Shown: positions 23,016 through 49,654 of the stretch, in pieces | Layout of the letters: each line of letters starts with the position of its first letter | How positions within the stretch are numbered: position 1 is the first letter of the stretch | DNA from: Magnetococcales bacterium | Lineage (GTDB): Bacteria; Pseudomonadota; Magnetococcia; Magnetococcales; JADFYX01 | NCBI GenBank assembly: GCA_015232365.1 | Contig: JADFZU010000008.1 | Coordinates: 1-64,000 of the forward strand | Reading direction: 5' to 3' | DNA: 64,000 bases | Notes under the pieces: model-generated | What the model saw: only the letters and a program-made list of their open reading frames with translations | What the model was told of the DNA's origin: nothing | Database searches by the model: none | Translations under genes and position numbers: made by a program

Positions 23016-23579
23016 TTATTGAACTAGAAGGGATTGAATATCTCTGGTTAAAGGCATGTCAAAATCTTCTGCAGCAATGGTAACGCCATCTGCTAGCCTA
23101 ACAACCTGTGCTGTGACAAAAATTCTACTTTGACTTGTCACATAACTACCAGCCAAGACAGCAAAAACATCATGGGAGTCACGAATTTTCTCCAACTCAC
23201 GAGTTAAGATCAACTGACCCTTACCCTGCTGTAGAAGGAAGTTTTTCCTCAGCTTGACCTCAACTATTTTATATCCAGCCTGGGTAAAACGGTTGGAAAA
23301 CTGCCTTGAGAGCAAGCGACCAAAAGGGCTGGTCTCATTCATATCCCGCTCATCAACAAAGCTGGCAGGAAGAAAGCTCTTACCCTGGAGACGGAACTTA
23401 TCCTTCATGATTGCCAGCATTGCATCAGCAGCTTTCTGCGACTGACCCTGCATATCCAAGGATTTTGGCCCAGATAACGGCTGAGATATAAGCGGATAGG
23501 TCTCTGGGGTCTGGGCACAGCCAGCTACAAAAAAGAGACCAACTATCAAAGCCACAAGAGTTTTATTCATGCCTGACAT
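23016..23579 (-). CDS. FlgO-domain lipoprotein, second of a tandem pair
   Basis: Exported lipoprotein with signal peptide and lipobox LFFVAGCAQTP. The body matches the FlgO fold: AADAMLAIMKDKFRLQGKSFLPASFVDERDMNETSPFGRLLSRQFSNRFTQAGYKIVEVKLR, then HDVFAVLAGSYVTSQSRIFVTAQVVRLADG. I chose the ATG at 23577-23579 because GGAG lies nine bases upstream; MNKTL three codons later is an alternative, and the track start is five codons earlier. It is a paralogue of the gene upstream. No flagellar genes are nearby, so a flagellar role should not be assumed. Confidence 0.85.
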   Translation of the reverse strand: MSGMNKTLVALIVGLFFVAGCAQTPETYPLISQPLSGPKSLDMQGQSQKAADAMLAIMKDKFRLQGKSFLPASFVDERDMNETSPFGRLLSRQFSNRFTQAGYKIVEVKLRKNFLLQQGKGQLILTRELEKIRDSHDVFAVLAGSYVTSQSRIFVTAQVVRLADGVTIAAEDFDMPLTRDIQSLLVQ

Positions 23580-23596
23580 CGTGCCAAACTCCATTT

Positions 23597-24250
23597 TTAT
23601 TGCTTCACAATCGACATGGATACACCACCACCAGAGGCCATCAACAGATCACGAATATCGGCACCGAGAGGTATCTTGGCATCTACTGATGACAAAACCT
23701 GACGATCTTTGATCTGAATCAAACGGGCGGTAAAATCCAAAAGTGATTTGGTTTCAGTGTAGGTTCCTACCACAACAGCGTAGGCTTTATTATCAGCAGA
23801 CAGTTTTGCAATATCCCGAGAAAGGATAAACTCGCCCATACCTTTGCGAATTGCTAGATCCTTACGTAGACGAGGCTCCACAACCCGGTACCCCTGCTGG
23901 GAAAAGCGGGAACCAACATGGTCGGAGATCAATATGCCCAACTCAGAAGAGGAGTTCATATCGTTACGGTTGACAAAAGAGGTGACCAAGATCGGCTTAC
24001 GCTGATGAAATGATGGATGGTTCTTCCGCAACTCAGCTACCAACGCATCGGCAACCGCATGACTCATACGGATCAGATCAACATCAGCGTTGATCTTTAC
24101 TGGAGCATTTGGCAAATGGGCAGTTTGAGCAGTTTCCGATGCTGGGCTAGAAAGCAGGTTGCTCAAATTCATTGAAGAGTTGGCACACCCAGATATACCC
24201 GCCGCCAATATAATGGCTGCCATACTGGTTTTAAACAGAGATTTTTTCAT
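23597..24250 (-). CDS. FlgO-domain lipoprotein, first of a tandem pair
   Basis: Exported lipoprotein with lipobox AAGISGCANSS. The FlgO-like region contains ADALVAELRKNHPSFHQRKPILVTSFVNRNDMNSSSELGILISDHVGSRFSQQGYRVVEPRLRKDLAIRKGMGEFILSRD, aligning closely with its downstream neighbour, so the two arose by duplication. I set the start at the ATG at 24248-24250 (MKKSLFKTS), which has AAGGA eight bases upstream; the track start is eight codons earlier. The pair ends at a strong terminator and appears to be an independent two-gene operon. Confidence 0.85.
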   Translation of the reverse strand: MKKSLFKTSMAAIILAAGISGCANSSMNLSNLLSSPASETAQTAHLPNAPVKINADVDLIRMSHAVADALVAELRKNHPSFHQRKPILVTSFVNRNDMNSSSELGILISDHVGSRFSQQGYRVVEPRLRKDLAIRKGMGEFILSRDIAKLSADNKAYAVVVGTYTETKSLLDFTARLIQIKDRQVLSSVDAKIPLGADIRDLLMASGGGVSMSIVKQ

Positions 24251-24454
24251 GAAATTTTTCCTTGCACTCAACAAAAAATTGATTGAACAGTTCTGTCCAA
24301 GGAGTTCATTAACATGATGTTATCACTGTAATAATTTGAAATAATCAGAAAATCTTAAAAAACCTGCCGCCTGCTGGTCCAAGGGGCAGTTAACTAGAAA
24401 ATTTCCCAACAAATCAAGTATTAAGCTATAAGACCCTAATCAATGATACCCGGA

Positions 24455-42016: not shown

Positions 42017-42766
42017 ATGAAGGGTTTAGTGATGAAGATCGGAGCACATGGAAGAAAAGTTCTGCTCATCGGACTGTTGACATCGGGACTAGCGGCTTGT
42101 GGAGGTCACAGAATTGACCCAACCCAAAGCCGGATGCCAACTTATGAAATGCCAACGGCGATTATTATGCAAACGCCAGCGGTTAGACTGCAAGGTTATG
42201 GTACAGGCGGAATGCCAATGGCAGCCGTACCCCAACCTCACTATGCACCAGCAGGTCATACGCAGATGAATAGAACAGCACAACCTGCTTTTGGAATACC
42301 AAACACCATGGTAGCTCCAAATAGCGGGTATGTTGCTGCTCCATCATCTGGCGACCCGCGCACAATGGTAAGATCAGATGGTGCAACTGTTGTCCAACAG
42401 CCACCGGTAACTGTAAATCGTCCATCAATAGTCATTCCTCAAGATCCGATCTGGGTTGGCAATCCGCCACGGCCTATTCCTCAGCCGCCAGTAGTAGTGG
42501 AACAACCACCTATTGTATATGACCAACCGAGTGTTGTTGTCCGTCCGCCACAAGTTGAGTTTACTCCACCAGCTCGCCCGGTAATGATGCCAAATCCGGT
42601 ACTTATGCCTGCTCCGCAGCAGAGCTACTATCCGCAAATGTCCCAATACCAGCGGCAGACACCAAGTGCAATGGCAGCACCAGTCAAACAACATAGAAGG
42701 TTGATGACCCCTGCGGCTGTAATGCCAAGCCAGCCAGGACCAGAGGACTATCTGCCACCTAAATAA
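42017..42766 (+). CDS. Proline-rich exported lipoprotein (first of an exported-protein cluster)
   Basis: I recognise no family. A signal peptide ends in a lipobox (LIGLLTSGLAACGGHR), so the mature protein should be a lipoprotein. The rest is low complexity: Met/Pro/Tyr-rich at first (RMPTYEMPTAIIMQTP), then a proline-rich block (IPQPPVVVEQPPIVYDQP). It ends with EDYLPPK. Such proline stretches tend to be extended and may span the periplasm or coat the cell. The ATG at 42017 has AAGGAG eight bases before it; the track's TTG at 42011 is less likely. Three further exported proteins of similar composition follow. Confidence 0.75.
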   Translation: MKGLVMKIGAHGRKVLLIGLLTSGLAACGGHRIDPTQSRMPTYEMPTAIIMQTPAVRLQGYGTGGMPMAAVPQPHYAPAGHTQMNRTAQPAFGIPNTMVAPNSGYVAAPSSGDPRTMVRSDGATVVQQPPVTVNRPSIVIPQDPIWVGNPPRPIPQPPVVVEQPPIVYDQPSVVVRPPQVEFTPPARPVMMPNPVLMPAPQQSYYPQMSQYQRQTPSAMAAPVKQHRRLMTPAAVMPSQPGPEDYLPPK

Positions 42767-42828
42767 GCAGATTGGTTTGGAAGATAAGAGGATAGAGCTG
42801 TAATTACCGATTCATGAGCAAGGGATAA

Positions 42829-43212
42829 ATGAGAACAATGAAAATTTATAAGACAATTTTTTCTATCCTGGCATTGGTAGCCACCATCATCATTGGGGCA
42901 GCATCGGTTCAAGCAGATAGCAGAGACAAAAACCAGCTCCGGCCACCACAAAACCGGATGCTCATTTATACTCAAGCAACCCCTTATGCCCACCCAGTTG
43001 ATTACTGGTGGCATTTAGATCCTTCAACATCAGGATCATGGGACTATTTTTCACCTGTTCATAATGTTGAACAACCGATGCCGCTACACAAAGGCACAGT
43101 GTCAACTTATGGAACTCCGACACCAGGTGTCAGGGAAAAAGTAAAAAATGCTTTTTCCAAAACTGTGGTATTTATCAACCCGGTCGCACTTGTAACATCT
43201 CCTGCTTACTAA
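42829..43212 (+). CDS. Small exported protein of unknown function (cluster gene 2)
   Basis: A 127-residue protein with a clear signal peptide (IYKTIFSILALVATIIIGAASVQA) and probable cleavage before DSRDK. The mature part is rich in Pro, His, Tyr and Trp (TPYAHPVDYWWHLDPSTSGSWDYFSPVH) and ends in a short hydrophobic tail. No known domain is evident. AAGGG lies just upstream of the ATG. It lies 62 bp after the lipoprotein gene and 54 bp before the next exported-protein gene, all on one strand. Confidence 0.7.
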   Translation: MRTMKIYKTIFSILALVATIIIGAASVQADSRDKNQLRPPQNRMLIYTQATPYAHPVDYWWHLDPSTSGSWDYFSPVHNVEQPMPLHKGTVSTYGTPTPGVREKVKNAFSKTVVFINPVALVTSPAY

Positions 43213-43266
43213 AAGCAGGTTTAAAAATCAAAGCGACTATCAACACGAAGGAACAAGGGAGTAAAC

Positions 43267-43851
43267 ATGAAAACAATTGTTAGTAAACGTTTTAGAACGG
43301 CCATCCTGGCCAGCGCAGCCTTGATGGCTGCTACAGTTGTTACCCCTCAGCAAGCAAAAGCGGATGCCACTCTGGCAGCTGTTTTGGGTGGTAGCGCACT
43401 ACTAGGTTTGATTCTGCACGCAAATCAACCAATATTAGCTCCGCGTTTTCAAAGAGCTAACAGCATGTTGAGGCATCAAAGTTATGCTGCCCCAGCTCAG
43501 GTTGCCATGCCAGCATATCAACCCTACCCAAGCTATGCTCCAGTTGTATACGCATCTGTAGCTCCAGCTCCAATGCATCAGAATGCATATCGTGTAGTCC
43601 AACCTGTACGTTATCAGGTTACTGCACCATCTGCTTCTCCTATGCAGGGTGTTTACCACTCTAGTGCAAACATGAGTTACCCAATGCAGAGCCAGCCACA
43701 ACATCAATTGGCTGAAGATCCTATGCAGCAGGCTATGATGCAACAGATGCAGCAGCCAGCCCAAGCTCAGCAGATGTCATACCAGCAACCTGGCCAGTAC
43801 GGCATGGGTATGGCTCAACCTCAGTATGGAACAACTTATCCTCAGTACTAA
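43267..43851 (+). CDS. Exported Gln/Met/Tyr-rich low-complexity protein (cluster gene 3)
   Basis: Signal peptide (ILASAALMAATVVTPQQAKA, cleavage before DATL), then a short hydrophobic glycine-rich segment (LAAVLGGSALLGLILHA). About 130 residues of low-complexity sequence follow, rich in Ala, Pro, Tyr, Gln and Met: MQQAMMQQMQQPAQAQQMSY and AQPQYGTTYPQY. The composition resembles disordered, prion-like or adhesive proteins. No family is recognised. The gene has a strong AGGGAG site and is followed by a rho-independent terminator. Confidence 0.7.
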   Translation: MKTIVSKRFRTAILASAALMAATVVTPQQAKADATLAAVLGGSALLGLILHANQPILAPRFQRANSMLRHQSYAAPAQVAMPAYQPYPSYAPVVYASVAPAPMHQNAYRVVQPVRYQVTAPSASPMQGVYHSSANMSYPMQSQPQHQLAEDPMQQAMMQQMQQPAQAQQMSYQQPGQYGMGMAQPQYGTTYPQY

Positions 43852-43901
43852 ATTTTGGTACTGAAAAAAGTACAATAGAGCGTACTTTTGATAGTTGGGT
43901 A

Positions 43902-43953
43902 AGTATAACAGACTTCCGGCAGATAATGCTGGGAGTCTGTTATACTGGTTTTT
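43902..43953 (+). terminator. Rho-independent terminator inside the exported-protein cluster
   Basis: AGTATAACAGACT and AGTCTGTTATACT form a 13-bp stem, with a further CCGGCA/TGCTGG pairing inside the loop. TTTTTTT follows two bases later. It separates gene 3 from the SPOR-domain gene, which must then have its own promoter or rely on read-through. Confidence 0.9.
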
Positions 43954-44008
43954 TTAAAATAGTCTGGTTAAACAAAATTTGATTTTTTGCTTTTGAAGGA
44001 TAATAATT

Positions 44009-44746
44009 ATGGACAGGCAGGACAACACACATCGTCACACAGCACCCATTATGGGAATACTGTTACTAGTGGCCATTATGTTGTTTTCGACCCTAAGCTA
44101 TGCTGGACCATTCGGCAAGACCGAAACAGTCTACCGGCCTCCAAGTATGCACTACTATTCTCCTGATAAAAATCCAGAGTATACATACCAATCTACCGGA
44201 AACTTTGCCAAACATCCGGTAGTTATGCCAAAAAACGTTCCTGTAATAAGCCAGAATGCCTACTATTACATGACCGCGCCACAAACTGATCAAATTAATA
44301 TACAGTCATACCCGCCACAGTCGGTAGGCGGAATTATGATGTCTACACCTCCTAGATACAGCACCCAGCAGACAATGAGGCCACATAATAGAGTTCCGAT
44401 GCAGCAGCAGATGGCTCCACAACAGCATCATGCTCCTAGAGCGGGCATTGCTCCACAGCAGTATCTTGCTCCAAGACAGCCCATGATGGGCCAAGCCAAC
44501 ACGGGGAATATGGCTACACAGTCATACTCTCTCCATGTCGGTAGTTACCTGGTCTACTCCAAGGCAGATGAACTTGAAGAAAAAGTCAAGGCATTGGGCC
44601 TGAAATCATATCGCAAAGAGGTTGCTGCTGAGGGAATACGCTATCTACAACTCCGAGTCGGCCCTTTCCGCACCAAAACAGAGATGAGGCAGGCTGCTGC
44701 CATTCTGAATGAAAATAAAATTAAAAATCGTATCGCTATCCGCTAA
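44009..44746 (+). CDS. SPOR-domain exported protein with Gln/Pro/Met-rich linker (cluster gene 4)
   Basis: An N-terminal hydrophobic segment (IMGILLLVAIMLFSTLSYA) is a signal peptide or anchor. A Tyr/Pro/Met/Gln-rich middle (VPMQQQMAPQQHHAPRAGIAPQQ) resembles the three upstream exported proteins. The last 75 residues are a SPOR domain: YSLHVGSYLVYSKADELEEKVKALGLKSYRKEVAAEGIRYLQLRVGPFRTKTEMRQAAAILNE. SPOR domains bind septal peptidoglycan lacking stem peptides, so this protein probably sits at the division site. AAGGA precedes the ATG. Confidence 0.85.
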   Translation: MDRQDNTHRHTAPIMGILLLVAIMLFSTLSYAGPFGKTETVYRPPSMHYYSPDKNPEYTYQSTGNFAKHPVVMPKNVPVISQNAYYYMTAPQTDQINIQSYPPQSVGGIMMSTPPRYSTQQTMRPHNRVPMQQQMAPQQHHAPRAGIAPQQYLAPRQPMMGQANTGNMATQSYSLHVGSYLVYSKADELEEKVKALGLKSYRKEVAAEGIRYLQLRVGPFRTKTEMRQAAAILNENKIKNRIAIR

Positions 44747-48366: not shown

Positions 48367-49596
48367 CTAGGCCAGGCCTGTTGCCCTAATAAACTTTTTG
48401 GTACCGGCAGCTAAAGCACTTGCCAGAGCGTTTTGATGGGAGTCGTTACGCAGCAACCTCTCCTCACGCTTGTTGGTCAAAAAAGCCAGCTCTACCAAAA
48501 TAGAGGGCATATCAGGAGCCTTTAAAACTGCAAACCCAGCCTGTTTAACCTTTTTGAAATGGATATTCACCTGGGGAGTATCTTTCAACTCGCCCAACAG
48601 TTTTTTTCCATAGACCAAAGCCCGGTTTAGAGAGTCCCGCTGGGTAAGGTCCATCAAAATGCCCCGCACAGTAGGGTCGGCTACATGGCTTAGTTTTACT
48701 CCACCAATCAAGTCAGAGCTGTTCTCTCGCTGCTCCAACCGTCTGATAGCTTTGTCAGGAGATGGCTTACCACCCTCTGAGAGCATGTAGACAGATGTAC
48801 CTTTAGCAGATTGTAGCCTGAATGCGTTGGCGTGAAGACTGACAAAAAGATCAGCTTGATGATTCCTGGCTACCGATACCCGGTCACGTAGAGAGACAAA
48901 ATAGTCACCTTTACGGGTCAGTTCAGCTTTAAAACCATCCATACTATTTATTTTTCTGGCTAAACGTTTTGCAACCTGTAGGGCAACATCCTTCTCTTTT
49001 GTACCATTCAGCCCTACAGCACCGGGGTCAATTCCGCCGTGACCAGGATCTATAACAACAACAGCATCACGACTAGCGGTGCGGTCGTGGCTAACTGGCT
49101 GATCGCCTGGAGTTTTGGACTTTCCTTCGACACGAACCAGATCGACAACCAGTCTAGGCGGCTTTTCTCCGGAAGCTTTGAGAAAAAATGAGCGAGGCTT
49201 AATACCGGTTTTCAGTTCAAAAACTGTCCTTATTATGCCGGGACGGGGTATCCCTGACCGTACACGATTGACAATAGGGTCAGAAAAACCCATGGTAGCA
49301 GGATCAACACCGGCCACAGAGTCCATAAGGTCGACAACCAGACGGTTAGGATTGCGGAGTTGTAACAATTGATGCCGGGTGTTACGCTCTAAATCGAAGA
49401 CCAGACGGGTATGGTCGGGGGCAGTCCACATTCTGACATCGGTAATCCGGTTTAGGCGGGCTGCATGAGCAAAAGAAGGGGGCAGAACCATACTACCAAC
49501 TGACATGGCAGCGATCCCTTGCAACACCTGGCGACGCTGAAGCGGGCTTAATTTTGACTCTGTTTTCTTATCAAGTACCGATTTAAGATTGATCAT
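48367..49596 (-). CDS. amiC: N-acetylmuramoyl-L-alanine amidase with AMIN domain and Tat signal
   Basis: Septal peptidoglycan hydrolase of the AmiA/AmiC type. A twin-arginine signal is evident (SPLQRRQVLQGIAAMSVGSMVLPPSFAHAA), followed by an AMIN domain (residues about 50-150). The amidase_3 domain has zinc ligands in VIDPGHGGIDPGAVG, DLFVSLHANAF and PSILVELAFLTNKREERLL. I place the start at the ATG at 49594-49596 (MINLKSVLDKK), with AGGA upstream; the track adds nine residues. Tat export agrees with the tatABC genes at 35-36 kb. amiC is used as the closest name; amiA-type is also possible. Confidence 0.92.
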   Translation of the reverse strand: MINLKSVLDKKTESKLSPLQRRQVLQGIAAMSVGSMVLPPSFAHAARLNRITDVRMWTAPDHTRLVFDLERNTRHQLLQLRNPNRLVVDLMDSVAGVDPATMGFSDPIVNRVRSGIPRPGIIRTVFELKTGIKPRSFFLKASGEKPPRLVVDLVRVEGKSKTPGDQPVSHDRTASRDAVVVIDPGHGGIDPGAVGLNGTKEKDVALQVAKRLARKINSMDGFKAELTRKGDYFVSLRDRVSVARNHQADLFVSLHANAFRLQSAKGTSVYMLSEGGKPSPDKAIRRLEQRENSSDLIGGVKLSHVADPTVRGILMDLTQRDSLNRALVYGKKLLGELKDTPQVNIHFKKVKQAGFAVLKAPDMPSILVELAFLTNKREERLLRNDSHQNALASALAAGTKKFIRATGLA

Positions 49597-49654
49597 GGTA
49601 TCCTGTTTCGTTGTTAAGAGCATTAAAACACAATTTTTCTAAATGGAGACAACA

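Follow-up and report, generated by a model that had tools for sequence, protein, structure and literature searches.

An envelope gene cluster specific to Magnetococcales

The window, that is, the whole 64,000-nucleotide stretch of DNA analysed here, which is part of a 2.84 Mb draft genome of a Magnetococcales bacterium, carries four neighbouring genes, designated A to D, that almost certainly form an envelope gene cluster specific to the order and maintained by selection. Their products bear export features, the genes evolve under purifying selection, and their linkage is conserved across the order and restricted to it. Our best reading of the cluster, which we advance tentatively, is that it encodes a tether or scaffold between the outer membrane and the peptidoglycan, one that would act like Braun's lipoprotein (Lpp) without being one. 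The features referred to below are the following:

42017-42766, + strand: gene A, Pro-rich lipoprotein, 249 aa; order-wide orthologues in the equivalent position
42829-43212, + strand: gene B, small exported Trp/Tyr motif protein, 127 aa
43267-43851, + strand: gene C, exported protein rich in Gln, Met, Tyr and Pro, 194 aa
43902-43956, + strand: hairpin and T run resembling an intrinsic terminator, in the gap from C to D; two congeners share its stem
44009-44746, + strand: gene D, export signal, E module, Gln/Met/Pro linker and SPOR domain, 245 aa
44147-44296, + strand: E module of D (residues 47-96), within SMHYYSPDKNPEYTYQSTGNFAKHPVVMPKNVPVISQNAYYYM; encoded by a gene of its own in other families
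44519-44716, + strand: SPOR domain of D (residues 171-236; PF05036), with YSLHVGSY, in which His replaces the canonical glycan-binding Gln

By inspection, A, B, C and D all start with an N-terminal, hydrophobic export signal; cleavage sites are of the AxA type in B and C, and another follows the hydrophobic stretch of D. The combined share of Pro, Gln, Met, Tyr, Trp and His is 32-49% in the mature proteins (A, 43%; B, 32%; C, 49%; D, 35%) as against 13-21% in the 27 other coding sequences of the window. An initial annotation had described four neighbouring exported, compositionally biased proteins, the first three of which match no known family, and both statements hold: the four are same-strand open reading frames, A, B and C have no Pfam match, and searches of NCBIfam and PHROGs with A-D gave nothing of note. 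When all B and C members were compared with Pfam, the only convincing match was the SPOR part of a fusion in family f9; a PDB search with B gave no match. Judged by these searches, A, B, C and E belong to no named family. The description of D as a SPOR protein with a linker is correct for the SPOR part, but the N-terminal part is not linker only: residues 47-96 form the separate conserved module E.

Protein searches of 61 genomes showed that homologues of A, B, C and D adjoin one another in most members of the order, and the cluster A-B-C-E/D was found, whole or in part, in 14 of 14 sampled families. Loci read from these 14 families share a recurring gene order, A-B-C-E, with SPOR fused or next to it. 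In named records, the close homologues all came from 'Magnetococcales bacterium' assemblies (19 of 19); at most of 19 named loci A, B and C stand in this order, usually followed by E, and C adjoins B in nearly every family. A profile of B matched 34 of the 48 genomes of the order (E<=0.001) and found no counterpart in 351 genomes from the rest of the phylum. The order genomes with no B match comprise seven of g17, two of f4, one congener (G004, 90% complete) and four assemblies of lower completeness. A lipoprotein and a C-like gene are nevertheless present in members of g17 and f4, and g17 has the SPOR gene as well. In f2, f4, f5 and f10, the lipoprotein preceding B or C was assigned from its position and lipobox, without a significant profile match.

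Where dS could be estimated, comparison of the window with two congeners gave dN/dS values of about 0.12-0.25 for A, B, C and D, indicative of purifying selection, the constraint being weaker than on the adjoining aldolase and HU genes. The biased composition alone might suggest decay products or chance low-complexity reading frames, the outcome that had been named as fatal to the proposal of an assembly, but this is refuted with near certainty by the synteny across 14 families, the dN/dS of about 0.2 and the invariant motif residues described below. The search for conserved synteny in relatives, also proposed at the outset, thus ended in linkage kept across the order.

Three other explanations of the cluster were rejected. 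A mobile origin is contradicted by the lack of any match to B among 72,556 plasmids and of PHROG matches, and an RNA element by the lack of an Rfam match anywhere in the window. The flanks of the cluster differ between families, and only the window's genus retains the aldolase gene upstream and the HU gene downstream, which argues against a shared origin with these neighbours.

Protein A, a putative outer-membrane lipoprotein with a terminal lysine

By inspection, A has a lipoprotein signal with the lipobox LAAC followed by GG (by GH or AH in relatives) and lacks the inner-membrane retention Asp at +2. In an alignment of 18 members from five families, Cys28 and the final Lys are invariant, and the terminal Lys (...DYLPPK in the window) stays constant while the tail preceding it varies. 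Around residues 122-185, A has Pro heptads of the form PP[IV]VxxQ with a strict period of 7, and Pro spacings of 7 and 14 are strongly enriched relative to shuffled sequences (z about 15). A looks like an outer-membrane lipoprotein with an extended Pro-rich middle that could span the periplasm. A short paralogue of A, of about 115 aa, without the Pro repeat and ending in PAPY, occupies a second locus in two congeners (L103:6767-7114 and L092:4516-4860).

L,D-transpeptidases link the C-terminal Lys of Lpp and of OutB to peptidoglycan, and in Dickeya OutB a single C-terminal Lys is enough for attachment, the surrounding box tolerating many substitutions (PMC12274547). YkuD (PF03734) L,D-transpeptidase genes are present in all 48 genomes of the order that were tested, including that of the window, a presence that does not imply specificity. 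The A-type protein ends in Lys in 10 of 15 sampled lineages, for which the chance would be about 1e-4 at a base rate of 20%, the lineages being non-independent; the terminal Lys is missing from A or its positional lipoprotein in f2, f3, f8 and the MC-1-like genus. In the MC-1-like genome the last residue is Asn, while the A-type lipoprotein of a genome resembling that of Magnetofaba australis IT-1 has the Lys. In addition, more than 20% of the periplasmic proteins and lipoproteins of E. coli end in Lys with no known attachment (PMC12274547).

Small motif proteins and the hairpin between C and D

B is marked by the motif HPVDYWW-x(3)-PS-x(2)-GxWDYFxPV, of which Trp60, Pro65, Trp71 and Tyr73 are invariant even in the widest alignment; its predicted structure has no confident fold (pLDDT 53). 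C has a hydrophobic, Gly-containing conserved segment right behind the signal peptide (AD..LAAVLGGSALLGLILHA) and a motif resembling VVYASVxP or VIYSSVxP. E is an 'IYYP' module with a motif like HIYYPDYA, followed in several families by the stretch YxYQSTGxFAxxPxVIPxxVPV; the module is a separate open reading frame in f7/g7, the MC-1-like genome, f3, f12 and one f11 genome. In several families the B, C and E proteins encoded together tend towards a C-terminus of Arg preceded by Tyr or a hydrophobic residue (IYR, VYVR, SMVR; L079, L086, L071, L072, L085), like a shared terminal tag; these '-YR/-VR' ends are striking in f2, f3, f5 and f11 and absent in f1 and others, and the window's family does not have them. 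Extra pairs of C paralogues lie off the main cluster in g13 (L096, G016:C7; L097, G031:C4; L100, G026:C27), the shorter ones ending in YYPY.

The hairpin between C and D has 20 pairs and is followed by the T run; two congeners have a hairpin at the equivalent site with an identical stem core, AGACTTCCGGC...GCCGGAAGTCT. Such a conserved terminator-like element suggests that A, B and C probably form one expression unit, and that D is expressed less strongly or has a separate start. The gap between C and D in f13, of about 16-40 bases, is too short for such a hairpin, which hence looks like a feature of the genus.

The SPOR domain of D and its fusions

D matches the SPOR family PF05036 with 24.3 bits (cut-off 21) over residues 171-236. 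In its predicted structure only residues 173-235 are confident (pLDDT about 90), the remainder being predicted as disordered. The modelled SPOR fold, RNP-like with a beta-sheet and two helices, is sound: it superimposes on the RlpA SPOR domain with a TMt of 0.82 and an rmsd of 1.2, and the nearest solved relatives are the SPOR domains of DedD and RlpA.

The place of SPOR within the cluster varies. E and SPOR are fused in f1, f13 and f7/g17 and adjoin as separate genes in f3 and in one f11 genome; in f9 SPOR is fused to the B motif, and several lineages, including g7, the MC-1-like genus g11 and f12, have no SPOR in the cluster. Being detachable in this manner, SPOR is not the core of the system, and its joining to two different partners, E and B, supports a shared site of action at the peptidoglycan.

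The conserved SPOR Gln contacts the glycan (NAM/NAG; Q270 of RlpA and Q251 of FtsN) and is required for the septal localisation of FtsN and DamX, but it is a preferred and not a universal SPOR residue (PMC6895207). Its position is taken by His in f1, f13, f7/g17 and one f11 genome, by Arg in f3 and by Phe in the B-SPOR fusion of f9, whereas among the 22 other SPOR matches in the window's genome, read by eye, 11 have Gln and none has His. Glycan binding by the SPOR domain of D is plausible; the change to His in most orthologues means that septal targeting is not to be assumed, and SPOR is a safer indicator of peptidoglycan contact than of the septum. Among the papers searched, none joins Magnetococcales with SPOR domains, and the MC-1 locus-tag prefixes yielded magnetosome papers only.

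SPOR domains are expanded in Magnetococcales, with 23 matches in the window's draft genome and 6-29 per genome across the 48 genomes of the order, versus 2-9 in 13 genomes from elsewhere in the phylum; g17, which lacks B, is among those with the fewest (6-10). At G000:C48:43543-43761 (L142) there is a SPOR domain of I-S-M-G-C type, about 18 kb from the last magnetochrome match among the matches listed on that contig, and a second, similar one on contig C70.

A proposed tether between the outer membrane and the cell wall

From the features of the four genes and their relatives, we infer location, covalent attachment, assembly, expression ratio and function as follows. A would be held in the outer membrane by its lipid and would span the periplasm as an extended proline-repeat rod, and L,D-transpeptidases may join it through its C-terminal Lys to the stem peptides of peptidoglycan, as with Braun's lipoprotein. 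B, C and E, as small, mostly disordered exported proteins with short aromatic motifs, would assemble on or near A. The SPOR domain fused in several lineages to E, as in D, or to B could provide a second, non-covalent hold on the glycan. In the window's genus, A, B and C would be transcribed fully, and D at a lower level through the terminator or from its own start. This reading is favoured by the preservation of A-B-C-E throughout the order despite swapped flanks, the terminal Lys, the Pro period of 7, the YkuD genes in 48 of 48 genomes, the precedent of OutB, the two kinds of SPOR fusion and the fit of the SPOR model to RlpA. Weighing against it are the commonness of Lys ends in E. coli, the lineages in which A or its positional lipoprotein does not end in Lys, the divergence of the f2, f4, f5 and f10 lipoprotein, too great for sure homology to A, the His in place of Gln in SPOR, and the failure to obtain a fold for B.

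Like Lpp and OutB, A is exported, has a C-terminal Lys and is encoded in a genome with YkuD L,D-transpeptidases, and like Lpp it is a lipoprotein. However, Lpp is a coiled coil of 58 residues, whereas A has about 250 aa, contains a Pro repeat and bears no sequence relation to Lpp, ends in LPPK, is accompanied by B, C and E, and its attachment is putative. None of the 18 A members matched the Lpp family; going by sequence, with neither homology nor the trimeric alpha-helical coiled coil, A is not a member of the Braun lipoprotein family. D resembles DedD, FtsN, DamX and RlpA in its N-terminal hydrophobic segment, disordered Pro/Gln linker and C-terminal SPOR domain of the right fold, but differs in the conserved E module ahead of the linker, in having His for Gln, in the detachability of its SPOR domain and in being embedded in a cluster with A, B and C. 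TonB-type periplasmic rods are proline-rich, with EP/KP repeats and a TonB domain. The extended Pro-rich stretch of A could likewise cross the periplasm; A, however, would be lipid-anchored at its N-terminus, has the heptad PP[IV]VxxQ and lacks a TonB domain. As a working principle, the putative set of lipid anchor, wall attachment and SPOR domain is a variation on a kind already known.

A bolder proposal, which we regard as somewhat unlikely, is that A, B, C and E constitute a new kind of multi-protein scaffold between outer membrane and cell wall, made of disordered proteins that carry short aromatic or proline motifs. Such a scaffold would have arisen a single time, in the magnetococcal ancestor, and would keep together the envelope of these very fast, bilophotrichous cocci. 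An assembly that does function as a single scaffold would amount to a new envelope system, belonging to one order. Were A attached to the wall by its C-terminal Lys, the covalent type of outer-membrane tether would reach well beyond the gamma-proteobacteria and would extend to a Pro-rich rod as opposed to a coiled coil. In any event, the cluster offers a concrete entry point to the poorly known envelope of magnetotactic cocci, and the His-type SPOR domain a natural test of what SPOR requires for glycan recognition.

Alternative roles of the cluster

The proposal in the initial annotation of a cell-surface or septal assembly is partly supported, having withstood the checks of linkage and selection; its septal part is weakened by the lineages in which SPOR is missing. 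In a division-linked assembly, SPOR would draw D to denuded septal glycan and D would bring A, B and C together at the constriction, where they might, for instance, draw in the outer membrane. The SPOR match above the Pfam cut-off and the kinship with DedD and RlpA are consistent with this, as is a gene about 4 kb downstream of D (48367-49623, - strand) which by inspection encodes an AmiC-type N-acetylmuramoyl-L-alanine amidase, the kind of enzyme that makes denuded glycan. Yet several lineages keep A, B, C and E with no SPOR in the cluster, the Gln-to-His change is conserved in the cluster SPOR, and of 22 further SPOR matches in the genome 11 have the canonical Gln; a septal role is accordingly unlikely, and the earlier suggestion that SPOR points to denuded septal glycan finds little backing, with His for the glycan-binding Gln in most orthologues and no SPOR in the cluster of several lineages. 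An extracellular coat, in which surface-exposed A, B, C and E would build a fibrillar outer layer held on the membrane by A, has a comparably low probability. The very high content of Pro, Gln, Met and Tyr and the predicted disorder would suit such a layer, and a fibrillar layer has been described on the outer membrane of Magnetofaba australis IT-1 (PMC5088516); in the comparison of neighbours, however, no secretion or surface-export gene ever travels with the cluster, and the repeated SPOR fusions suggest the periplasm.

A part in a lifestyle-specific organelle, in magnetosome positioning or in the anchoring of two flagellar bundles, is less probable still. The cluster is limited to an order in which all 48 genomes tested have magnetochrome-domain genes, for which reason the source organism is most likely a magnetotactic coccus; with no genome of the 48 lacking magnetosome genes, however, co-occurrence cannot discriminate. 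About 83 kb separate the cluster from the last magnetochrome match among the matches listed for the MC-1-like genome, in the window's genome the two are on different contigs, and the cluster has no conserved flagellar neighbour.

Elsewhere in the window, two tandem genes of the FlgO family (PF17680) occupy positions 23016-24274 on the - strand.
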